64,000 bases of DNA from Halorussus rarus (GTDB lineage: Archaea; Halobacteriota; Halobacteria; Halobacteriales; Haladaptataceae): NCBI RefSeq assembly GCF_003369835.1, contig NZ_QPMJ01000001.1, positions 1,235,589 to 1,299,588 of the forward strand, in the 5' to 3' direction. The notes beneath the pieces are model-generated. The model ran no database searches. It was not told the origin of the DNA and was given only the letters and a program-made list of their open reading frames with translations. The first letter of the stretch is position 1. Each line of letters begins with the position of its first letter. Both the position numbers and the translations under genes were made by a program. Positions 34,166-48,412 of this stretch are shown here, piece by piece.

Positions 34166-34824
34166 TCGTCCATCGGCCCGGGAGAGTAGCGGTCCGCGGT
34201 ACGCGTCCTCCTGGGACCACGGCTGCCGTGGCAGTTGCGGTCTTCGTCGCCGAACTCGGAAACTGTCTCCGGTACGACCGGAATCGCTAGGCCGTGACGG
34301 AGAGCCCCGCCGGTTCTCGGCGCCACGAGATGCGCTAAGCGACTCCGTACTCCGTCTCTGTTCCGGGCCGCCCTCAACGTGCTCGACGGGTGCTGCGGCG
34401 ACTGACGGCCTCTCCCGTCTATCTTCTCACCGGGCCGCCCACGACAACAGGCTCCGACCGAAAGATGCGATAGCCCAGACGCGTCTCGAATACGCGCCGG
34501 CGGTGTTGAATCAGAAGCAACTGGAACGGATTGGCATCCCACCGCCACCTGACGGCGCCGGTATCCCGAGAGAAGGCCGTTCGCGCTGACCGAGTTCCGA
34601 CTGTTCGACTGACGCACCTCCACGTGCGGCAGATACGTAATCTCTCTGTGTGGTACCTTCCCTCGATAGTTATTCATCTCTCTTAACGGGCCGTTGAACC
34701 GGAATATCTCGCTGGATAGTACTGACTTTCGGCGGCATTATGGCACTACTACAGGAGATAAGGTCTCTTATTTGCCCCGATGGGACAACTTGATGTACCG
34801 GGGGTGAGACGGGAACAACGACCG

Positions 34825-35238
34825 ATGAGCGACGACGCCGACACCGACCGGGCGGTCGTGAAGACGTTCGTGCCGACTTATCAAAAAGACGAGTGGAAGC
34901 GACACGCTGACGAACTGGACATGAGCCAGAGCGAGTTCGTCAGAACAATGGTACAGGCCGGGAGACGCGGGTTCGGGCTCGAATCGGAAACGGTGTCGTC
35001 GGAGAATCGCGCGGAGGGGGAATCTGAGGGGTCCTCCCCTGGGGGTGACGGTCTCGAAACCCGCCTCCTCGACCTTCTGGATTCCGGCGAATATCTGTCG
35101 TGGGACCAACTGGTCGAGGAGCTGGCCGGCGACTTCGAGGACCGACTCGAGGAGACCCTCCAGCGGCTCCAGAACGACAACCGGGTCCAGTACAGCGGCC
35201 GCCGGGGCGGCTACACGGTGGTGGGCGATGGCGAGTAG
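34825..35238 (+). CDS. Small ribbon-helix-helix/winged-helix-type protein coupled to the recombinase
   Basis: The ATG at 34825 gives 137 residues. The N-terminal 50 residues (VVKTFVPTYQKDEWKRHADE, then LDMSQSEFVRTMVQAGRRGF) look like a ribbon-helix-helix DNA-binding motif: one strand and two helices with MSQSEFVR at the turn. A disordered acidic linker follows, then a C-terminal domain, LETRLLDLLDSGEYLSWDQL to NRVQYSGRRGGYTVV, with the pattern of a winged helix. Its last 11 bases overlap the start of the recombinase gene. It is probably a partner or accessory DNA-binding factor of that recombinase. Confidence 0.7.
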   Translation: MSDDADTDRAVVKTFVPTYQKDEWKRHADELDMSQSEFVRTMVQAGRRGFGLESETVSSENRAEGESEGSSPGGDGLETRLLDLLDSGEYLSWDQLVEELAGDFEDRLEETLQRLQNDNRVQYSGRRGGYTVVGDGE

Positions 35239-36286
35239 CCGGACCGCGGGCGACGCCGACCCCGACGACCCCGTTGGCTACTTCCTCGAGGATCTCCGGT
35301 TCCACGGCAAGAGCGAGCGCACCCGGGAGTACTACGAACGGGTCCTCCGGGAGTTCGAGTCGTTCGTCGGCGACCCCGACCGGAACCCCGGCGGCGCGTC
35401 GCTCGCGGTCGGCGAGGCCACCCAGCGCGAGTGCATGGCGTGGGTCCACAGCCTCCGGGGCGACCTCGCCGAGAGCACCGTCGCCACCTACGCCTCCTAC
35501 CTCCACCGGTTCTACGAGTACATGACCCAGGTCGGCGCGTTCGACGCCAACCCGATGGCGCTGGTCGTCGAGGAGATGAACGAGACCGTCGACAAGGACC
35601 CCACCCGCCGGGAGATATCGATCCCGCAGATGCGGGAGTTCGTGGCCGGTATCACTCACCCGCTGGAACGGGCCGCGGTCGTCACCCTGCTCAAGACCGG
35701 GATGCGCGTGGGCGAACTCTGCAACCTGGATCTGCGGGACCTCCGGCTCTCGGGCGATCCCGCGGAGGCGTACCGGCTCGGCACGCGACCGCAACTCGAC
35801 GGTCGCGGCGACTCGCTGTTCGTCGCCAGCGACGTGGGCCGGGGCGACTCGGTCAACGGCGAGGTGCGCTCGGCCGCGAACAAGCGCAAGCGGGCGACCG
35901 TCGTCCCGGTCGACGAGGAGCTCGCGACCGTCCTGACCCGGTGGCTCGCGGTCCGGCCCGACGCGATCTCGGACGCAGAGCCGCTGTTCGTCAGCACCAG
36001 CCGGGAGTGGGGCCGGCGGCTCACGCCCCAGATGGTCCGCAACGCCGTCGAGACCCACGCCCGAGAAGCAGGCTGGTACCGCCGGGGCGGCGGCGCCGAG
36101 GAGAACGTGACACCACACTACTTCCGGCACTTCTTCACCACCCACCTCCGGGACAGGACCGGCGACAGGGGCATCGTGAAGTACCTGCGCGGCGACGTGG
36201 CCGAGGACATCATCGACACCTACACCCACAACTGGGGCGACCGGGTCAGGGAGGTCTACGAGGAGCACGTCTACTCGGTGCTGTAG
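35228..36286 (+). CDS. Xer-type tyrosine recombinase/integrase
   Basis: Using the ATG at 35228 the enzyme has 352 residues. Residues 15-115 are the SAM-like core-binding domain (YFLEDLRFHGKSERTREYY). The catalytic domain has R160 in TGMRVGEL, a lysine in the NKRKRATVVPVDEE hairpin (K219 or K221), H297 and R300 in HYFRH, and the nucleophile Y332 in DTYTHNW. The canonical LGH histidine is replaced by LRG at 320-322. Such enzymes resolve chromosome dimers or move elements. The stable pairing with the upstream small DNA-binding gene and the absence of other phage genes favour a chromosomal Xer role. Confidence 0.87.
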   Translation: MASSRTAGDADPDDPVGYFLEDLRFHGKSERTREYYERVLREFESFVGDPDRNPGGASLAVGEATQRECMAWVHSLRGDLAESTVATYASYLHRFYEYMTQVGAFDANPMALVVEEMNETVDKDPTRREISIPQMREFVAGITHPLERAAVVTLLKTGMRVGELCNLDLRDLRLSGDPAEAYRLGTRPQLDGRGDSLFVASDVGRGDSVNGEVRSAANKRKRATVVPVDEELATVLTRWLAVRPDAISDAEPLFVSTSREWGRRLTPQMVRNAVETHAREAGWYRRGGGAEENVTPHYFRHFFTTHLRDRTGDRGIVKYLRGDVAEDIIDTYTHNWGDRVREVYEEHVYSVL

Positions 36287-37700: not shown

Positions 37701-40001
37701 CTATCCGCCGAACGCCGACAGCCGGATCTCCTCGACGTCCCGGAGGTAGCGGCGGATGCGGGTCTCGTCCCACCCGAGCGGTGCGAGCACGCTCTCGGCC
37801 GCCCGGAGCAGCCGGTCGGCGTAGAACTCGGCGTCGTACTCCTCGGTCCCGTCCACCTCGAAGTCGAGTCGCACGCGCTCGCGCTCGCGCGAGGCGTCGT
37901 CGTCGACCACCAGGAAGTCCAGCGACTGGCCGGGCTGGGGGTCGAGACCGGCGTCCTCGGCCCGGGTCAGCGCGGCGACGGTCCGGGTCCGGCGGTCGTA
38001 CGACTCCCGGCGCTTGGACGCTCGCCGGGTTATCAGGAGGTCGTCGGGCGCGACCTCGCCGGCGCGGAGGTCGCGGAGCCGGCGCTTCAGCACGTCGCAG
38101 ACCGGCGCCGGTTCGCGGTGGCGGTCGAGAGCGTCGAGCAGGTCGCGCTGGACCCGCTCGACGAACGCGGGGGTGCTGCGCTGGCGGGCCTCGATGCCCC
38201 GGAGCTTGTACTCGGGGTCGGCATCGCCGTCGCCGTTCGCGCCGTCACCGGCCTTCCCGTCGCCCTCGCCGGCACCGTCGCCGCAGTCGGCCTCGGGCGC
38301 GACCTTCCCGAAGTAGCGGTTGAGCGCGCCGGCCCGGGAGTCGCGCCGCGGGACGAAGCAGAGCCAGTCGTACGTCGCCTCGTGTTCGAGCGGGATGTCG
38401 ACCTCGTCGCTGACCCGGCCGGTCAGCGTCGAGAGGTCCGCGGACTCCCGGTCGTCGGCGGGGACGACCCAGAGGCTGTCGACGATGCCGTGGACGACCT
38501 CCCAGCCCCCGGCCTCGAAGGTCTCCTTGGCTCGCAGGAGGACGTCGCGGGCCACGGCGTTGATGGCCTCGTGGCACTCGATGCGGCCGAACTTGGCGTT
38601 GCGGTACCCTTGGTAGCCGAAGCACGACACCAGGATCCACTTGATGACGCTGGAGACCCGGCGCGCTCGCGCCGCCTCGTCCGGCGTCGGATCGTCGTCG
38701 GCGTCGCCGCCTGCTCGCTCGCTCGCCCGGATCGTCTCCTTCATCGCGGCCCGGTCGTCGAGCAGTGGTTCGAGCACGTCGACGAGGAACCCCGTCTCGT
38801 CGCAGACGTTGTAGCCGAGTTCGGGCACGTCCGCGCGGTCGGCGTGGCAGTCACAGAGCACCGTGTCGGGTGAGACGTTGTACTCGCAGATGATGCGGGG
38901 GTACAGCGACGCGAAGTCGACCTCCCGGACGCCCTCGTGGAACCCGACCTCGGGCGCGAAGGTGAACCCGCCGCGGTCGGCGGCGTGGAGGGTGCTCACG
39001 TCCTTGAACGACTCGGGCCGCCACTTGTTCCAGGGGATCAGCACGCCGCGGTCGAGCGCCTCCCGGATCTGGACGGCGGTCAGCACGTTGCCGATGCTGG
39101 CCCATCCTACCTCCTGGAGGGGCTTGCCCGACCGGCGGGTCAGGTACCGCAGGCCGTCGAGCCCGCCGTGGCCCCAGAGGAAGCTGTTCGAGGTGTCGAC
39201 GAGCGCCCGGCCCGGCAGATCGTACCGGGCGGGCGAGTGGCCCACCCGCCCGTAGCTCTCGTAGGTGCTCTCGCCCGCGAGCTTCCGGTGGCCCGACCGG
39301 CCCTCGCGGGTCCGGCCGAGTTCGAAGTTCTCGCGGCCGCACTCCGCGGCGGCCTCGTAGAGTAGCGGTACCAGTTCGCCGCGGTTGACGATCAGGACGT
39401 CGGGGTCGGTCTCGGCCAGTCGCCCGTCGAGTATCTCGAGCAACACGTCCGGGGTCGCCCGGAGCGGCTCGCCGTCGATCTCGAGCTTCGAGAGGTCGCC
39501 GTCGGCGAGCCGTTTGCGGTCGATGCGCAGCGACAGCGTCGACAGGTCGACCGACTCAGGGGTCGCGGGGTCGGTCCCGGTCTCGACGCAGTACCGGAAC
39601 TGCGGCGAGAGGTCGACGTTGAACAGCCGGAACGTGCCCGGCGGGTAGGCGCCCCGCTCGTGAACGCCCCGAATTTCCCGCGCCAGCGTCGAAACCTCGC
39701 TCGGACGGCCGAGGTCGACGCGGACGACGGTCTCGCGTTCGTCCGAATCGTCGGACTTCGTCCGGCCGTTCGCCGCGTCTCGCCTGGCGGCGTCGAGCCG
39801 CGTGTACCAGTCCTCCGACTCGGTGCGGGCGACCTTCGGGTCGTCGTCGAGCGCCGCCCGCAGGTCGGCGAGCGGCCCGTCGGGACCCGAGACGTACATC
39901 GTCGGCCGGTAGTCGGTCGTCCGCCGGGTCCGGAGGCCCCCGTCGGGAGTGCGCGACCACTCGACGACCGCCTCGTCGGTCACGTCGATCTTGAACGCCA
40001 T
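37701..40001 (-). CDS. PolB2-like family-B DNA polymerase with degenerate catalytic motifs
   Basis: The 766-residue protein has the layout of a family-B polymerase. Motif A is preserved as VDFASLYPRI with D362. Motif B is altered: K454 is followed by VSCFG where NSxYG is expected. Motif C is HGIVDS at 504-509 instead of YGDTDS, so the first catalytic Asp is Ile and only D508 remains. The thumb-like end with SYDRRTRTVAALTRAEDAG is present, but exonuclease motifs are not evident. It matches archaeal PolB2, a branch known for damaged active sites. The ATG follows the upstream stop by one base, so it is the last gene of a three-gene operon. Confidence 0.8.
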   Translation of the reverse strand: MAFKIDVTDEAVVEWSRTPDGGLRTRRTTDYRPTMYVSGPDGPLADLRAALDDDPKVARTESEDWYTRLDAARRDAANGRTKSDDSDERETVVRVDLGRPSEVSTLAREIRGVHERGAYPPGTFRLFNVDLSPQFRYCVETGTDPATPESVDLSTLSLRIDRKRLADGDLSKLEIDGEPLRATPDVLLEILDGRLAETDPDVLIVNRGELVPLLYEAAAECGRENFELGRTREGRSGHRKLAGESTYESYGRVGHSPARYDLPGRALVDTSNSFLWGHGGLDGLRYLTRRSGKPLQEVGWASIGNVLTAVQIREALDRGVLIPWNKWRPESFKDVSTLHAADRGGFTFAPEVGFHEGVREVDFASLYPRIICEYNVSPDTVLCDCHADRADVPELGYNVCDETGFLVDVLEPLLDDRAAMKETIRASERAGGDADDDPTPDEAARARRVSSVIKWILVSCFGYQGYRNAKFGRIECHEAINAVARDVLLRAKETFEAGGWEVVHGIVDSLWVVPADDRESADLSTLTGRVSDEVDIPLEHEATYDWLCFVPRRDSRAGALNRYFGKVAPEADCGDGAGEGDGKAGDGANGDGDADPEYKLRGIEARQRSTPAFVERVQRDLLDALDRHREPAPVCDVLKRRLRDLRAGEVAPDDLLITRRASKRRESYDRRTRTVAALTRAEDAGLDPQPGQSLDFLVVDDDASRERERVRLDFEVDGTEEYDAEFYADRLLRAAESVLAPLGWDETRIRRYLRDVEEIRLSAFGG

Positions 40002-40002
40002 G

Positions 40003-40248
40003 CTACTCGTCGACTCTATCGCGCAGTTCGCGGAGTTCGACCTCCTGGGCGAGCACCACCGACACGAGGAACGCGATCTCGGGGTCGGTCGCGTTCATGT
40101 ACGACGCGGCGTCGGCGTGCCGGCGGGCGCGCTCGAACAGGCGGTCGAAGTGGGGCTTGTGCCGGCGTCGCAGCCCCCGGCGGTACGCCGTCCAGTCGTC
40201 CTCGTAGCGGTCGAGGAAGTCCCGGAAGGTGGGGTTGGTCCGACCCAT
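40003..40248 (-). CDS. Small helical protein of the PolB2-like operon
   Basis: The 81-residue protein starts MGRTNPTFRDFLDRYEDDWT and is almost wholly helical and charged: RGLRRRHKPHFDRLFERARR, then HADAASYMNATDPEIAFLVS and a C-terminal leucine/charged helix. A basic first half and acidic second half suggest it binds nucleic acid or bridges two proteins. It sits two bases after the RecA-like gene and one base before the polymerase, so all three should be made together. No known domain is recognised. Confidence 0.7.
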   Translation of the reverse strand: MGRTNPTFRDFLDRYEDDWTAYRRGLRRRHKPHFDRLFERARRHADAASYMNATDPEIAFLVSVVLAQEVELRELRDRVDE

Positions 40249-40250
40249 CT

Positions 40251-40922
40251 TCACACCCCGACGCGGTCGGCGAGTCTCACGGCTTCGGCCGCGACCGCGG
40301 GGTCGTCCTCGACGACCGCACCGAGCAGTTCGACCCAGTACGGGATGGTAGTCTGCCAGAAGCCCTCGTCGAAGTAGACGGTCGTCTCGAAGTCGTCGGC
40401 GACGTACTTCAGCCCCGCGTCGGTCCGGGTGCACTCGATCTCGGCGTCGGCGCGGTCGGCCAGCAGGTCGGCGTACGGCCCGCTTGCGTCGCGGTCCGCG
40501 GTCGTCAGCACCGGCGCGTCGAAGCTCTCGGCGAGGCCGGACAGGACCGCGAGCGACGACTCGAGCAGGTCGGCGGCCTCCCACTCGGGCACGTCGTCGT
40601 CGCGGTACAGCGAGGCGACGCACGGCGCGACAACCAGACCGGCGTCCCCGGCGGTGCGGGCCACCTCCCGGACCAGCTCGTGGTGCTGGTAGGCGGTGAA
40701 CGCGCGGGCGACCCGGACGTCGCTCAAGCGAGCGCGACTCGGCGCGAGGTCGTAGAGCGCGTAGGTCGAGGCCTCGTTGCGGGCGTCGAGCCAGTAGACC
40801 GCGCCGTCGCGCTCGGCGAGTTCGGCGAGCGCGAGCCGGTGGAGCGCTGGCGAGCGCCGCGCCGGTCGGTCGAGCACCGTCAGTCCCGTCTGAAGCCGTG
40901 GCGTGTGGGGTCCTGCCGTCAT
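40251..40922 (-). CDS. Degenerate RecA/RadA-like protein
   Basis: The 223-residue protein follows the RadA core strand by strand. GLTVLDRPARRSPALHRLAL stands where GxxGSGKT would be. AVYWLDARNEASTYALYDL matches the IDTEGTF region, and VRVARAFTAYQHHELVREV the RadA helix before Walker B. LVVAPCVASLYRDDDVPEWE parallels LLIVDSLxxxFR, with the Walker B Asp lost. Both nucleotide motifs are therefore broken, so ATP hydrolysis is unlikely. It is the first gene of an operon ending in a degenerate DNA polymerase, with a TATA element directly upstream. By analogy with RecA-like partners of mutagenic polymerases, a loading or scaffold role is inferred. Confidence 0.72.
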   Translation of the reverse strand: MTAGPHTPRLQTGLTVLDRPARRSPALHRLALAELAERDGAVYWLDARNEASTYALYDLAPSRARLSDVRVARAFTAYQHHELVREVARTAGDAGLVVAPCVASLYRDDDVPEWEAADLLESSLAVLSGLAESFDAPVLTTADRDASGPYADLLADRADAEIECTRTDAGLKYVADDFETTVYFDEGFWQTTIPYWVELLGAVVEDDPAVAAEAVRLADRVGV

Positions 40923-40940
40923 CGTACCTCTCCGGTTCCA

Positions 40941-40950
40941 GATAAATTGG
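40941..40950 (-). promoter_or_regulatory. TATA element of the RecA-like/PolB2-like operon
   Basis: The minus strand reads CCAATTTATC, centred about 24 nt before the ATG at 40922, predicting a leaderless mRNA for the operon. Nothing like a damage-response operator could be recognised. Confidence 0.45.
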
Positions 40951-41176
40951 AGACGGGTTTAACGCTCGGCCATACTCGCGGTGAAAGTGAAAGTGGCGCC
41001 GTCTCGGCGGCGGGGTGGCCGCCCGCTGGCGAATCGCTCTCGATTCGCCGTCCGGTTCGGGGTGAAAGTGGCGGGCGCCGAGTCGGCCCGTCAGCAGGAC
41101 CGCGATTTTCGGAGGATTCTGACGACAGCTTCGAGACATATCTGTTTGGGTTGGGTTGTTCGACGTCGAATCTCCG

Positions 41177-42721: not shown

Positions 42722-43738
42722 CTAGTCGTCGCCGGTCTTCCCGCTCCCGTCGGCTACCGGGCGCTCGCGGCGCTCCTCGCGGACCTGCGCCTCGTAGCGC
42801 TTCCGGAGGACGTTGCCGTACATCGAGAGGACGAGGCCGACGAACAGCACCAGGACGCCGACGTTGATGCCGACCGTCAGCAGCGCGTCGGTCGGCCCGC
42901 CGCCGATGGCGATCTCGCGTGGTACCGGGTACCCCTCGTCGAAGATGCTGCCGAGCAGGACGCTTGCGATGCCGACGACGACGAACGCGCCCATCACGTT
43001 CGCGGCCCAGTTCCAGCTCTCGGAGAGAGTCAGCAGCTCGATGCCCGTTCCTTCGTGATCCCCGCTCTCGCGCTCGCCGTGGTCGCCGGGCGCGAGGTCG
43101 GTCGGGACGAACGCCTTGAGCTCGACCGGGTAGAACGCCGGGTGGAAGCCGTGCTCGAAGATGTGGAACATCACGCCCATCAGCATGATGACCCCGAGCA
43201 GGCCGTGGAACGTGACGAACGCTATCGCGGCGGTCCTGGTCGCGAGGTACTCCATCAGGCCGACCTTGTTCCAGACGAGCAGCCCCGAGACCATGAGCAG
43301 GACCAGCTCTATCGCGAAGATCCAGACGACGCCCTTCCCCACGTAGCTCAGCAGGGGTACCTCGTCGGCGGAGTAGCCCGCGAACTGGCGGGCGTTGGGG
43401 TGGCGCTCGTCTGCCCGTCCCAGCGCGAACTGCACGTCCTGGACGGCGGCGTCGACGTCCGCCTTCGAGGGCATGGCCGCGCGAACGCCCCGGCGTCCGC
43501 CGGGCGTGATGATAGTCAGCACGATCCAGAACGCCACGAGCGCCACGAGCCCCAGGCCGGCGAGCCGGTGGACCGCGAGCACGCCCACGTTGCCGCCCAT
43601 CAGCGTGACCAGCCACCAGAGCTCGTCGTTGAACATCACCGAGTAGCCCGTGAAGAACAGCGCGAACACGTCGAGCGCCAGCAGCGAGTGGAACACCGTG
43701 GTCGTCCGGGTGAACTTGCCGTGGTCGAGGTTGGTCAT
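42722..43738 (-). CDS. Formate dehydrogenase-type cytochrome b subunit
   Basis: The 338-residue integral membrane protein has about six helices and the cytochrome b561/FdnI-like pattern. Candidate heme ligands are in FHSLLALDVF (helix 1), AVHRLAGL (helix 2), TFHGLLGVIM and MFHIFEHGFHPAF. It should take electrons from the Fe-S subunit and pass them to quinone. It is the last gene of the minus-strand operon; its ATG overlaps the previous stop by four bases (ATGA). The long C-terminal hydrophilic tail is typical of the haloarchaeal form. Confidence 0.82.
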   Translation of the reverse strand: MTNLDHGKFTRTTTVFHSLLALDVFALFFTGYSVMFNDELWWLVTLMGGNVGVLAVHRLAGLGLVALVAFWIVLTIITPGGRRGVRAAMPSKADVDAAVQDVQFALGRADERHPNARQFAGYSADEVPLLSYVGKGVVWIFAIELVLLMVSGLLVWNKVGLMEYLATRTAAIAFVTFHGLLGVIMLMGVMFHIFEHGFHPAFYPVELKAFVPTDLAPGDHGERESGDHEGTGIELLTLSESWNWAANVMGAFVVVGIASVLLGSIFDEGYPVPREIAIGGGPTDALLTVGINVGVLVLFVGLVLSMYGNVLRKRYEAQVREERRERPVADGSGKTGDD

Positions 43739-44412
43739 CGACCGTCACCTCCCCGCTCGCGTCCGGACGACTCGTTTCGCTCGGCTTCCGACGTCCGAGA
43801 GACTGCGTTTCTCTCGCCGCCGTCACCCGGTGGGTCTCCGGCGTCCGTCCCGGAGGCGCCGCGCCCGCCGTCGGTCGCGACGGCGTCGCCGGCCTCCCGG
43901 CCCGTCGGCGGGCGCATGCGCTGGGCGAGCCGCCGGAATATCGCCCAGTGGACGAACACCATCCCGAGGATGAACACCCCCATGATGACGTCGGCGGCGT
44001 GGACGATGGCGATGGCCGCGTCGAGCACCGGCACGGTGTTGCCGAACACCCAGTCGCTGCCGACGCCCCCGCCAGAGACCGTGGGCGCGACCCGGAACAG
44101 TCGCTCGTAGAAGACCTCCCCGCCGAAGAAGCCGTCGACCCAGAGGTACGTCAGCGCGGTGACGCCCAGGCCGATTACCGCCGCGACGACGACCGCGGCG
44201 GCGCCCGTGAGGCCCGCGCCGTCGTCGCCGTCGCCGCCCTCATCCGGGTCGCGGCCCGGCGGGTCGTCCGGCGCGGTCCGGCCGATCGCGGCGTCGGACC
44301 GGGCGGTCTCGGGGTCGGACCGAGCCGTGTCGCCGTCGTCGGGCACGTCGCGCGCCGACTCGTCGGCGGTCTCGCCCCGGCTGGCCGACCGCCCGGCGTC
44401 GCGGTCGCTCAT
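43735..44412 (-). CDS. Membrane protein of the formate dehydrogenase operon
   Basis: The 225-residue protein begins with about 65 hydrophilic, mostly acidic and Asp/Arg/Ser-rich residues. Two or three helices follow: AAAVVVAAVIGLGVTALTYL, and a later AIAIVHAADVIMGVFILGMV ending in FVHWAIFRRL. Two histidines in the second helix block could ligate heme or contact quinone. A hydrophilic C-terminal tail of 55 residues follows. Start and stop both overlap neighbours by ATGA, so stoichiometric expression with the Fe-S and cytochrome b subunits is likely. The domain is not one I can name. Confidence 0.7.
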   Translation of the reverse strand: MSDRDAGRSASRGETADESARDVPDDGDTARSDPETARSDAAIGRTAPDDPPGRDPDEGGDGDDGAGLTGAAAVVVAAVIGLGVTALTYLWVDGFFGGEVFYERLFRVAPTVSGGGVGSDWVFGNTVPVLDAAIAIVHAADVIMGVFILGMVFVHWAIFRRLAQRMRPPTGREAGDAVATDGGRGASGTDAGDPPGDGGERNAVSRTSEAERNESSGRERGGDGR

Positions 44413-45104
44413 CCGCCGAACACCTCGGCGTCGTCGCCGAAGATGATCTCCATCGCCACGTCGTTGAAGAACGGGGCCGACCCGCGCCGCTCCAGTTCGT
44501 CGGCGATCTGGTCGGCGCTCCCCACCAGGATGGCGTCGGTCGAGCACTCCTCGGCGCAGGCCGGGCCCTTGCCGGTCTCGGACTGGCGCTCCTCACACAT
44601 CGTGCACTTGTCCATCACGTCGCCGTTGCCGACGAACCGGGCGCTCCCGTCGTCGGCCTCTGGGAACTGGGGCGCGCCGAACGGACAGGCCGACAGGCAG
44701 TACTGGCAGCCGACGCAGAGGCTGTCGCGCACGTCGACGAAGCCGTCGTCCGTCTTGATCAGCGAGTCGGTGGGACAGACCGACACGCACGGCGCGTTCT
44801 CGCAGTGGTAGCACTGCATCGGGATCGACGTCTCGCCGGGCTTCTGGCCCTGCTGGAGCGCCTGGCCGCTGTTGGCGTTGAGCCCCTCGGCGGCCTCCTG
44901 GCCCTCCATCATGGTCGCGATGCTGATACGTTGCTCGTCTCGGGGCACGTCCCACGTGCGCTTGCACGCGACGACGCAGCCGCCGCAGTCGATGCAGGCC
45001 TCGACGTCCGGGAAGATGCGCGTCCCCTCGCCGGTCCCCTTCACGCCGGTCCGCATGACCTCTCTGCTCGACCCCTGCTGGTTCTGAGATTGTTGTTTGG
45101 ACAT
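44409..45104 (-). CDS. Four-cluster Fe-S subunit of formate dehydrogenase
   Basis: The 231-residue electron-transfer subunit shows four cysteine groups: CIDCGGCVVAC at 37-47, CYHCENAPCVSVC at 98-110, CVGCQYCLSAC at 130-140 and CTMC...CAEEC at 167-187. This is the arrangement of the FdnH/DmsB/NrfC family with four 4Fe-4S clusters. It links the molybdenum catalytic subunit to the membrane cytochrome. It has no signal of its own, so co-export with the Tat-bearing catalytic subunit is expected. The ATG lies 11 bp after the catalytic gene. Confidence 0.9.
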   Translation of the reverse strand: MSKQQSQNQQGSSREVMRTGVKGTGEGTRIFPDVEACIDCGGCVVACKRTWDVPRDEQRISIATMMEGQEAAEGLNANSGQALQQGQKPGETSIPMQCYHCENAPCVSVCPTDSLIKTDDGFVDVRDSLCVGCQYCLSACPFGAPQFPEADDGSARFVGNGDVMDKCTMCEERQSETGKGPACAEECSTDAILVGSADQIADELERRGSAPFFNDVAMEIIFGDDAEVFGG

Positions 45105-45115
45105 CCTTGGTCACC

Positions 45116-48100
45116 TCACAGCGTGGTCTCCCCGTCGCGCACGTCGAAGTTCTTCTGCGTGCCGACGCCCTCGCGGTCCTGCGGGAACTCGGCGTCGAAG
45201 CCGACCATCTGGCCGTCCTCCCACATGTTGAGGTTCCTGAGCTCCTGTTCGGTCGCCTTCTTGACCAGCACCATCGCCGGCTTGGTCTCCTGCATCTGGG
45301 TCTCGACGTCGTACCCCCGCGAGGTGACGATGTTCGCGCTGTCGCCGATGGCGAACGGGGCCATCCCGTCGGGGTACTCGTCCTCCAGGCTCTTGCCGTG
45401 GAAGACGCCGCCCCAGTGGAACGGCAGGAAGATCTCCCGCGGGTTCGGCCGGTGGGTCACACGCGCCTTCACGAGCACCGACCCCCTGTCGGTGGTCTGG
45501 ACGATGACCATGTCACCGCCCTCGACGCCCGCCGATACCCCCTGCTGGTCCTGGCCGATGGTCCGGGCCTTCTTCGGGTGGATCTCGGCGTACATGTGGG
45601 GCTGGAGGTCGGCGAGGAAGACGTTCGAGCGCGACTCCGAGCCCCCGCCCTGGTGCTCGACCTGCCGGCCGGTCGTCATGATGGTGTCCATCCCCTGCTC
45701 GTTGGCCGCGGTCGTCGCGGTCTGCTGGAGCGCGGCGTTGTCCTGGTCGAGCCGGAAGAAGTTGGTCTGGGCGCCGTTCGCGGGCCACTGCTCGACCAGG
45801 TCCGGCCGCGGGCTCTCGATGGGTTCGCGGTGGACCGGCACGGTGTCGAGGAAGTTCCACGCCACCGCCCGGGCCCGGCCGCGTCCCGTCGGGGCGTCGG
45901 GCTGCTTGAAGTCGTACTGCTGGTAGTCCGCCGGATCGATGCCGGACGCCGCGCCCGGCGGCATGACGGTGCCGTTCTGGCGCATCTGCTGGAGCCGCCT
46001 CGCGGTGTCGAGAACCGACTTGTCCTCCCGGAGCGCGAACTCGTACGGCACCGAGAGCTTGTCCGGATTCTGGATGTCCTGGGGCCACACCGTCGAGAAC
46101 CCGGGGTACTGCGGGACGCCCCGGATGGGGTTCTGGCCGTCCCACCAGTCGGGGTTGTACGGCGCCCGGAGCATGTTCAGCCCCTCCTGGCCCTGCTGCT
46201 GGACCGTGTTCTGGAACGGGTACTCCTTGTCGTCGGGCACGTCGCCCGCGTTCACCATCTCGTTCCACTCCTGCTGGGTCGGCGCCGTCGTGCCCCACCG
46301 AGCGCGGAAGTCCTGCCCGCCCTCCCGCGGGTCGAGGTCGTCGCGCCAGATGATGGGCGTCCCCGGATGGCCCCGGCCCCAGCACGGCCACGGCAGCTGC
46401 CAGTACTCCCCCTCGACCGGGCCGGACTTGGCCTCGAGGTCCTCGGTGCTGAACGCGTAGTCGTACTCGTACTGGCGCTGGAGCCGCTGGGGGTCCTGCT
46501 GGTAGCCGATGGTCCGGACCCCGAGGTTGATCTCCTTCATGCACTGCTCGTAGGTGGCCTTGCCGCTGAACAGCTCCGGACCGCCGCCCCAGTCGAAGTG
46601 CTCGCCGTGACCGAGCTCGGCCGCCAGCTCCTGGATGATCTGCATGTCCGGCTTGGAGTTGTGGCTCGGCGGCCGGACCGGGTTGCGCCACTGGACCGAC
46701 CGGTGGGAGTTGGTCACGGTGCCGTGGTGCTCGTACTGGCTGGACGCCGGCAGGATGATGACGCCGTCGTCGCGCTCGGCCATCACCGACGCCAGCGACG
46801 GGAACATGTCGACGATGACAAGCAGGTCGAGGTTCTCCATCGCCCGCTTCTGCTTGCCCATCTCGCTGATGGAGTTGGCGGAGTGGCCGTCGAACACCGC
46901 GGCCCGGAGCCGGTTGGGCTGGTAGAGCTCCGACTCGCCCAGCCGCTCCTCCTGGGGGAGCGCGGCCTCGAACCACCGGGCGACGGTCAGCCCCTTCTGG
47001 AACATCATCGACCGGCTGTCGACCTCGCTGCCCTGGAACTGGAACGTCGAGGTGGCCTCGCCCGCCTGCTCGGTCCACTTCTGCCGGGACATCGTGTCGT
47101 ACCGGTTGTACAGGTCCTTGAACGAGGTGCTCCCGCTGGTCCACGGGCTCTTGTCCCAGACCTGCGACCAGTACCCCCAGGAGGCGGGCGAGCTCACCGA
47201 GTAGTAGCCCGGCAGGATGTGGCTGTTCGGCCCGAGGTCGGTCGCGCCCTGCACGTTCGAGTGGCCCCGCATCACCTGGAGGCCGCCGCCCGACCGGGCC
47301 GCCGACCCGGAGGCGAGGCTCAGCATCGCGTACGACCGGATGTGCTGGGTGCCGTTGTTGTGCTGGGTGCCGCCCATCGCCCACTCGATCTGGACGCTGG
47401 GCTTGTTCTCGATGACCAGGTCGCCGATCTCGCGGATGTCGGCCGGGTCGATCCACGTGATGTCCGCGACGGTCTCGAGGTCGTACCGGTCGAGCTTCGC
47501 CTCCACGTCGGGCCAGCCGTTGACCCGCTCGTTCAGCATCTGCCGGTCGAGTTCGCCCTGGTCGCGGAGGTACCGCAGCAGCCCCATCATCAGCGCGGTG
47601 TCGGTGCCGGGCCGGAGCCGGTAGAAGTGGTCGGCGTGGGCCGCGGTCTTGGTGAACCGGGGTTCGATGACCACGATCTTGCCCCCCCGTTTCTGGCCCT
47701 CGAGGATGTGCTGCATCGCTATCGGGTGGGCCTCCGCGGGGTTCTGCCCGATGATGATGTCCAGGTCGAAGTTCCGGTAGTCGTTGATGGTGTTGGTCAT
47801 CGCGCCGTACCCCCACGTGTTCGCCAGCCCAGCGACCGTCGTGGAGTGGCAGATCCGGGCCTGGTGGTCGACGTTGGTCGTCCCGAAGAACGCGGCCAGC
47901 TTCCGGAAGGCGTAGGCCTCCTCGTTGCTGTGGTGGGCGCTACCGAGCCACATCACGCTGTCCGGGCCCGACTCCTCGCGGTAGGTGTTGAGCTTCTCGC
48001 CGACCTCGCTCATCGCGGCGTCCCACGACACCTTCCGCCACTCGCCGTTCACCAGCTTCAGCGGGTGCTTGAGCCGCTTGGGCGAGTGCTCGCTGCCGTA

Positions 48101-48412
48101 GATGCCCGCGCCCTTCGAGCAGAGCGACCCGTTGTTGACGGGGTGCTCGTGCCACGGCTCCTGGCCGACGAACGCGTCGCCCTTGCGCTCGCCCTTGAAG
48201 CCGCAGCCCACCGCGCAGAAGTTGCAGATCGTCTTGACCGTCTCGGTCTGGCCAAGCGACCCCTCGGGGTCCTCCTCACCTCCCTCGTCCTGCGCGAGTA
48301 CTTGTCCCGCTGCGCTGCCTCCGAGTGCGACCGCACCCGCCAGCGCGCTCGCCTTCACGAACGAGCGGCGGTCGAGGTCGAGTGAAACTGGCTCCGTAGG
48401 TTCGGTGCTCAT
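45116..48412 (-). CDS. Formate dehydrogenase catalytic subunit (Mo/W-bisMGD, Tat-exported)
   Basis: The 1098-residue molybdopterin oxidoreductase has a Tat signal DRRSFVKASALAG at 14-26 and a 4Fe-4S site C63, C66, C70 and C98. The active-site motif is ARICHSTTVAGLA with C188 as metal ligand and H189 beside it, the formate dehydrogenase arrangement with Cys in place of selenocysteine. The MGD-binding domain ends in the classic C-terminal beta barrel (RPNPREIFLPFHWG). Gln/Asn-rich insertions in the middle are unlike bacterial FdnG. It heads the operon with the Fe-S and membrane subunits. Formate is the likely substrate, though related oxidoreductases cannot be excluded. Confidence 0.88.
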   Translation of the reverse strand: MSTEPTEPVSLDLDRRSFVKASALAGAVALGGSAAGQVLAQDEGGEEDPEGSLGQTETVKTICNFCAVGCGFKGERKGDAFVGQEPWHEHPVNNGSLCSKGAGIYGSEHSPKRLKHPLKLVNGEWRKVSWDAAMSEVGEKLNTYREESGPDSVMWLGSAHHSNEEAYAFRKLAAFFGTTNVDHQARICHSTTVAGLANTWGYGAMTNTINDYRNFDLDIIIGQNPAEAHPIAMQHILEGQKRGGKIVVIEPRFTKTAAHADHFYRLRPGTDTALMMGLLRYLRDQGELDRQMLNERVNGWPDVEAKLDRYDLETVADITWIDPADIREIGDLVIENKPSVQIEWAMGGTQHNNGTQHIRSYAMLSLASGSAARSGGGLQVMRGHSNVQGATDLGPNSHILPGYYSVSSPASWGYWSQVWDKSPWTSGSTSFKDLYNRYDTMSRQKWTEQAGEATSTFQFQGSEVDSRSMMFQKGLTVARWFEAALPQEERLGESELYQPNRLRAAVFDGHSANSISEMGKQKRAMENLDLLVIVDMFPSLASVMAERDDGVIILPASSQYEHHGTVTNSHRSVQWRNPVRPPSHNSKPDMQIIQELAAELGHGEHFDWGGGPELFSGKATYEQCMKEINLGVRTIGYQQDPQRLQRQYEYDYAFSTEDLEAKSGPVEGEYWQLPWPCWGRGHPGTPIIWRDDLDPREGGQDFRARWGTTAPTQQEWNEMVNAGDVPDDKEYPFQNTVQQQGQEGLNMLRAPYNPDWWDGQNPIRGVPQYPGFSTVWPQDIQNPDKLSVPYEFALREDKSVLDTARRLQQMRQNGTVMPPGAASGIDPADYQQYDFKQPDAPTGRGRARAVAWNFLDTVPVHREPIESPRPDLVEQWPANGAQTNFFRLDQDNAALQQTATTAANEQGMDTIMTTGRQVEHQGGGSESRSNVFLADLQPHMYAEIHPKKARTIGQDQQGVSAGVEGGDMVIVQTTDRGSVLVKARVTHRPNPREIFLPFHWGGVFHGKSLEDEYPDGMAPFAIGDSANIVTSRGYDVETQMQETKPAMVLVKKATEQELRNLNMWEDGQMVGFDAEFPQDREGVGTQKNFDVRDGETTL

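Follow-up and report, generated by a model that had tools for sequence, protein, structure and literature searches.

Three genes on the minus strand of the analysed Halorussus rarus DNA (64,000 nucleotides in all, hereafter the window) form what is very probably a PolB2 mutasome operon. They encode a RadA-like protein without a functional ATPase site (iRadA), a small PolB2 partner protein (PPB2) and the B-family DNA polymerase PolB2. With almost the same confidence, this single-copy chromosomal operon can be read as one whose products extend distorted primer ends past lesions. Since the PolB2-iRadA-PPB2 mutasome has already been published, the machine itself is not new. The new element is a promoter box of UV-B-induced genes located at a mutasome operon. 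The gaps between the genes are 2 bases and then 1 base, and all three frames are open; the gene order, coordinates and spacings given in a preliminary description of this DNA proved exact.

40251-40922, minus strand: iRadA, 223 aa; RadA/Rad51-like, catalytically inactive, N-terminal domain and Walker A/B residues absent
40003-40248, minus strand: PPB2 (arCOG07300-type, PolB2 partner), 81 aa; N-terminus MGRTNPTFRD
37701-40001, minus strand: PolB2, 766 aa B-family polymerase; HGIVDS and VSCFG motifs, exonuclease motifs gone, D342-R343 motif present

Protein families and conservation of the operon

PolB2 matches the B-family DNA polymerase subfamily NCBIfam NF004418 over its full length (898 bits, cutoff 692) and Pfam DNA_pol_B with 63.6 bits. 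One PolB2 is present in the genome, which also encodes a separate replicative PolB (26% identical to PolB2), a DinB-type polymerase and ordinary RadA genes with intact P-loops. Alignment with the replicative PolB bears out the motif changes described earlier. Motif A is DFASLYP with D362 kept (DLKSLYP in the replicative enzyme), motif B is KWILVSCFG at residues 454-462 (KVIMNSLYG in the same columns) and motif C is HGIVDS at residues 504-509 (YGDTDS in the same columns). The exonuclease motifs FDIE, NADDFD and YNVRD of the replicative PolB have no counterpart in PolB2 in this alignment. At the C-terminus, EIRLSAFGG can be aligned with the end of the replicative enzyme, QTGLGSFV, though without the Gln of the clamp-binding motif.

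Comparison of 17 diverse haloarchaeal PolB2 proteins showed that D362, D508 and K454-W455 are invariant and that the palm residues are strictly conserved. A341-D342-R343, which corresponds to the D(K/R) motif before the palm and would touch the PPB2 arm, is also invariant in these sequences. Within motif C, H504, I506, V507, D508 and S509 are invariant and G505 is nearly so, and the same holds in a set of 34 sequences. As the altered motif C is conserved across diverse haloarchaeal PolB2 proteins, it is characteristic of the family, and a sequencing error, which had been considered at the outset, is ruled out. A viral origin of PolB2 was also considered and rejected, as an IMG/VR scan with the PolB2 alignment gave no relative.

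The first protein is the iRadA of the literature. Its kinship with RadA is weak when the single sequence is used: the match to Pfam Rad51 (E 0.016) is below the cutoff, and a phmmer search of iRadA alone against the PDB gave no match even at E 10. A profile of 29 iRadA sequences finds archaeal RadA (4a6p, E 4.6e-12), Rad51 and DMC1. Consistently, the best Foldseek matches of the iRadA AlphaFold model (mean pLDDT 88) are DMC1/RadA ATPase domains with E values of about 1e-10, and Rad51 paralog complexes are also among the matches. Thus, the RecA-like fold proposed for this protein was found by both profile and structure searches. The proposed loss of both Walker motifs was also seen directly: GxxxxGK[ST] is absent, the expected site between the first strand and helix reads RPARRSP, and LVVAP stands where LIVDS, with the Walker B Asp, would be expected. 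The N-terminal domain of RadA is missing, and inspection by eye revealed no evident clamp-binding motif. Residues W44, D46 and W196 and the motifs AR.FT..QH and QTT are invariant in the iRadA relatives.

The AF2 model of PPB2 (pLDDT 90) is all-helical with a flexible MGRTNPT arm, in agreement with the small helical protein expected from the sequence. All 30 PPB2 sequences compared have MGRT and R9. In the published mutasome, PPB2 is defined by an MGRT arm that enters the cleft between PolB2 and iRadA (PMC11791011).

The joint occurrence of the three genes extends across the haloarchaea. Of the order's 243 genomes, 146 contain a match to PPB2. In the sampled haloarchaeal loci, an iRadA match lies beside PPB2 in 40 of 40, and a full-length PolB2 follows in 34 of 40. 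A further 80 loci, collected independently by way of PolB2 and evaluated with a strict script, include 59 with the plain order iRadA-PPB2-PolB2, and several of the remaining loci are overlapping frames or insertions. Some operons in other genomes carry an exonuclease-like fourth gene, which encodes an RNase_H_2 protein. The operon is under purifying selection: comparison with the nearest relative, Halorussus litoreus, gave dN/dS values of about 0.46 for iRadA, 0.30 for PPB2 and 0.28 for PolB2, which are rough because synonymous-site substitutions were estimated in GC-rich genes.

Promoter elements of the operon and of related operons

The upstream region of iRadA contains the following elements.

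41062-41070, minus strand: single box CACTTTCAC, further upstream, from the pattern search of the window
40982-40992, minus strand: TTTCACTTTCA box with the same sequence as the UV-B promoter motif of Halobacterium, 70 bp before the iRadA ATG
40957-40963, minus strand: GTTAAAC, conserved in three Halorussus copies and 17-18 bp downstream of the box; a candidate TATA element
40942-40947, minus strand: ATTTAT, alternative AT-rich element, conserved in three Halorussus copies
40927-40933, minus strand: GGAGAGG, Shine-Dalgarno-like, before the iRadA start, conserved in three Halorussus copies

A CACTTTCACTTTCAC-type repeat is likewise conserved upstream of iRadA in the alignment of the three Halorussus copies. 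The preliminary description placed the operon behind one TATA element. An AT-rich element is indeed present, but that account was incomplete: there are two candidates for the element, and the UV-response-type box was overlooked. The 11-mer TTTCACTTTCA was reported in 2008 as the motif common to the UV-B-induced Halobacterium promoters of radA1, top6B, vng17 and vng280 (PMC2556686), a paper that does not name its regulator. In Halobacterium the exact 11-mer lies about 50 bp from the start, before the TATA box; here the same 11-mer lies 70 bp upstream, with the TATA-like element in between. It occurs once in the window (0 expected), and the CACTTTCAC pattern has three matches in the window, two of which overlap within the main box (0.08 expected).

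Genome-wide, pattern searches, on which all the motif counts rest, showed eight copies of TTTCACTTTCA, whereas base composition alone would predict about 0.2-0.4. Four sites matched the reversed control pattern, which, however, overlaps with the box. Of these eight copies of TTTCACTTTCA, seven sit 55-90 bp before an open frame, including those of RPA (confirmed by NCBIfam) and an Lhr-like helicase, and near-copies are found at both of the organism's own radA genes. The iRadA operon thus shares its UV-type box with RPA and the Lhr-like helicase, and near-copies extend this group to both radA genes. When the box was combined with a TATA-like element at a fixed spacing, 29 sites were found in 18 Halorussus genomes (about 0.003-0.008 expected; none for the reversed control). 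These sites precede RPA, the helicase, an uncharacterised two-gene cassette, iRadA (three times) and one further gene. Across the order, the composite occurs in 63 of 195 genomes, with two control sites in all. The inspected loci include top6B in several genera, as well as RPA and an Orc1/Cdc6-like gene (both named by eye). The rediscovery of top6B, a UV-B-responsive gene, supports the pattern. In Haloarcula rara the operon has the box variant TTTCACTTCC.

The box suggests how the operon may be switched on. The connection is correlative: by extension from the Halobacterium data, the operon would be induced by UV-B through this box. In the available text of PMC11791011 and PMC4104785 we found no mention of a UV-B-type promoter box. 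ACTTTC, present twice within the box, fits the Sulfolobus damage element ANTTTC, which is bound by Orc1-2. The two elements may have a common origin; six loose bases cannot show homology, and the proposal is offered only as a test.

Analysis of 78 non-redundant iRadA upstream regions indicated two promoter classes. The pattern TTTCACTT[TC]C is found in 13 of the regions (shuffled mean 0.03) and a tandem GGAA box in 32 (shuffled mean 0.12), and the two never occur in the same region. The first-class label is clustered on the PolB2 tree, with 6 changes vs. 14.7 in shuffled labels. The tandem GGAA box usually lies 43 bp away from the start. In Halorussus, the second-class composite pattern occurs in 13 places, with one control site. 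Ten of the 13 are directly upstream of iRadA, two are upstream of PPB2-like frames whose iRadA went undetected, and one precedes a short frame whose nature is unclear. The second class may have a dedicated regulator. The chances are about even that the haloarchaeal mutasomes are wired into a conserved damage promoter network, through either the radA1/top6B/RPA-type TTTCACTTTCA box, as in this operon, or a largely private tandem GGAA box. This reading includes a GGAA box at a fixed distance from the TATA element and the start, and a UV-B box that may be related to ANTTTC.

Comparison with known systems and function of the complex

An operon of polB2, arCOG07300 and an inactivated radA, with haloarchaeal members, was described in 2014 by Makarova and colleagues, who suggested a complex of the products (PMC4104785). 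In 2025 Timinskas and colleagues published models of a heteropentamer that contains PolB2, iRadA and PPB2 in the ratio 1:1:3, named it a mutasome and compared it with Pol V (PMC11791011). The multi-protein lesion-bypass or mutagenesis device inferred in the preliminary description is this mutasome; that inference is supported, and it had already been published in substance. The operon shares with the published system the three families, their order, the MGRT arm and the D(K/R) motif, together with the inactive ATPase site of iRadA, the decayed exonuclease and the loss of the first motif C Asp. In contrast, the putative clamp motif, optional in the family, is at best degenerate here, and orc1/cdc6, SRAP and DUF72, reported as neighbours in the published system, are absent among the ten adjacent genes scanned. 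A side check showed that Cas1 is absent from the genome.

By homology and the published models, the three proteins would form one complex. PolB2 would be its catalytic subunit without proofreading. iRadA, as a RadA core that would no longer bind ATP, may dock on a PolB2 loop in the way that one RadA subunit docks on the next. PPB2 would form a trimer that inserts one of its MGRT arms in the cleft close to the active site. By analogy with Sulfolobus, such a complex would elongate distorted primer ends beyond lesions, providing damage tolerance at the price of mutation.

Among the closest known systems is Dpo2 of Sulfolobus islandicus, a robust polymerase without proofreading that has IID in motif C and is specialised in extending mismatched ends (PMC8764526). 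Thus, PolB2 is not to be assumed dead. In both proteins motif C is changed (IID in Dpo2, IVD here) and proofreading is absent. However, the activity of Dpo2 is experimental and its damage induction proceeds via Orc1-2/ANTTTC, whereas the halophilic PolB2 is known from sequence. Since HGIVDS retains one Asp of DxD, activity of PolB2 is claimed by analogy. The altered motifs noted in the preliminary description stand, but its term "damaged" is probably too strong, given the active Dpo2 with an equivalent motif C change; "altered" probably fits better. Haloferax volcanii has a PolB2, HVO_A0065, which adjoins a radA-like gene and is likened here by its description (PMC7776575). According to unpublished work mentioned in that paper, the H. 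volcanii polB2 is deletable, with the phenotype not given. The literature searched yielded no experiment on a haloarchaeal PolB2.

The operon had also been likened to bacterial ImuA-ImuB pairs, in which a degenerate RecA-like protein goes with an inactive polymerase-like protein, the Y-family ImuB, which works with DnaE2. A general likeness may be drawn in the degenerate RecA-like protein beside a polymerase, but the polymerase here is of the B family by Pfam and NCBIfam rather than of the Y-family fold of ImuB. The closest published functional parallel is instead Pol V/Pol zeta (PMC11791011). As described there, E. coli Pol V (UmuD'2C-RecA) similarly combines a polymerase, a RecA-family protein and a small subunit that places an arm close to the active site. 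However, Pol V has a Y-family polymerase, an active RecA and an unrelated small subunit, and it is not a member of the family.

Strict conservation of the motif A Asp, D508, K454 and the palm residues would not be needed in a pure scaffold, and Dpo2 with a comparable change is active (PMC8764526). It is thus unlikely that the operon encodes a non-catalytic regulator or scaffold, in which a dead polymerase and a dead RadA would mark stalled forks or aid an origin-independent start of replication. Such a role would fit the loss of one DxD Asp, of all the exonuclease residues and of the Walker motifs, and Makarova and Koonin proposed a replication role from arORC2 neighbours (PMC4104785). Marginally less likely is a recombination accessory, in which iRadA would cap or remodel the RadA filament and PolB2/PPB2 would extend D-loops rather than bypass lesions. 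The profile kinship of iRadA with RadA, the Rad51 paralog complexes among the Foldseek matches, the near-copies of the box at both radA genes and its exact copy at RPA are compatible with this role. However, in the published AlphaFold models the PolB2-RadA interface is very poor while that of PolB2-iRadA is good (PMC11791011), and Sulfolobus genetics points to mutagenesis. A decaying operon of pseudogenised relics of a plasmid-borne polymerase module, suggested by degenerate motifs and by broken PolB2 copies in relatives (loci L056-L058), is highly improbable, as conservation already contradicts it: none of the three frames is interrupted, dN/dS stays far below 1, and the same motifs are kept across the order along with the promoter box.

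Earlier knowledge of the PolB2 mutasome came from models and from genetic work in Sulfolobus. Through the promoter evidence, a tractable haloarchaeal mutasome is now linked to the UV-B response motif of 2008, and in halophiles it becomes directly testable whether PolB2 drives induced mutation and which protein reads the box. If the haloarchaeal mutasomes are wired into the damage promoter network, the UV-B box regulator would have direct control over their induced mutagenesis.

Genes flanking the operon in the window

Two gene groups flank the mutasome operon (iRadA-PPB2-PolB2) of the window:
34780-36286, opposite strand to the operon and downstream of it: DUF5805 protein and Xer-like tyrosine recombinase
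42722-48412, upstream of the operon: molybdopterin oxidoreductase, 4Fe-4S protein and cytochrome b cluster

In H. litoreus and one further genome (G102), the DUF5805 and recombinase genes likewise have the operon in their vicinity. The upstream cluster is formate-dehydrogenase-like, and was not found close to the operon at the other loci searched.

Promoter boxes and a two-gene cassette

The tandem GGAA box, with the pattern [CT]NGGAANNN[CT]NGGAA[AG]-N13-CTTA, is positioned 43 bp upstream of the start in many mutasome operons, and was seen at L054-L055, L093, L099 and L194-L206 (loci from relatives' genomes) as well as in 32 upstream regions. Within Halorussus, 12 of the 13 tandem-box sites are located at mutasome operons or their remnants. 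The UV-type box of the mutasome operon is also present at a conserved two-gene cassette in Halorussus (L222, L223, L230, L235 and similar loci). The product of the first cassette gene has ~55 residues and carries ELVxYNPxxxHEWINA, and that of the second carries TTKKRHRPDETGDEPACRAFL; a Pfam search with the cassette proteins gave no match.

Interrupted, broken and four-gene operons

Additional operon copies with fragmented PolB2 occur in Halorussus and its family (L056, L057, L058), and some genomes have as many as eight PPB2 matches. In plasmid-type operons, TnpB-like transposon genes are situated immediately upstream of PolB2, either splitting it from iRadA-PPB2 or occupying the expected place of these two genes:
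L107:4421-5761, TnpB-like transposon gene
L109:4421-5761, TnpB-like transposon gene
L111:3442-4791, TnpB-like transposon gene

A subset of haloarchaeal mutasome operons, several of them plasmid-borne, has a fourth gene after PPB2 (L107, L109, L094, L138, L151, L118, L148, L135 and others). Its product is RNase_H_2/PolB-exonuclease-like, with the motifs DIETTG, NGxxFD-like and HNVAD:
L107:1624-2265, fourth gene
G125:C11:22140-22781 (genome:contig), fourth gene
G017:C7:15054-15695, fourth gene

A look through the main text of PMC11791011 turned up no reference to this exonuclease-like gene. The sole homolog in the genome of the window is a stand-alone gene (G000:C1:1101499-1102140, 55% identity). 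The four-gene operons would pair a proofreading-less polymerase with a separate exonuclease-like gene.
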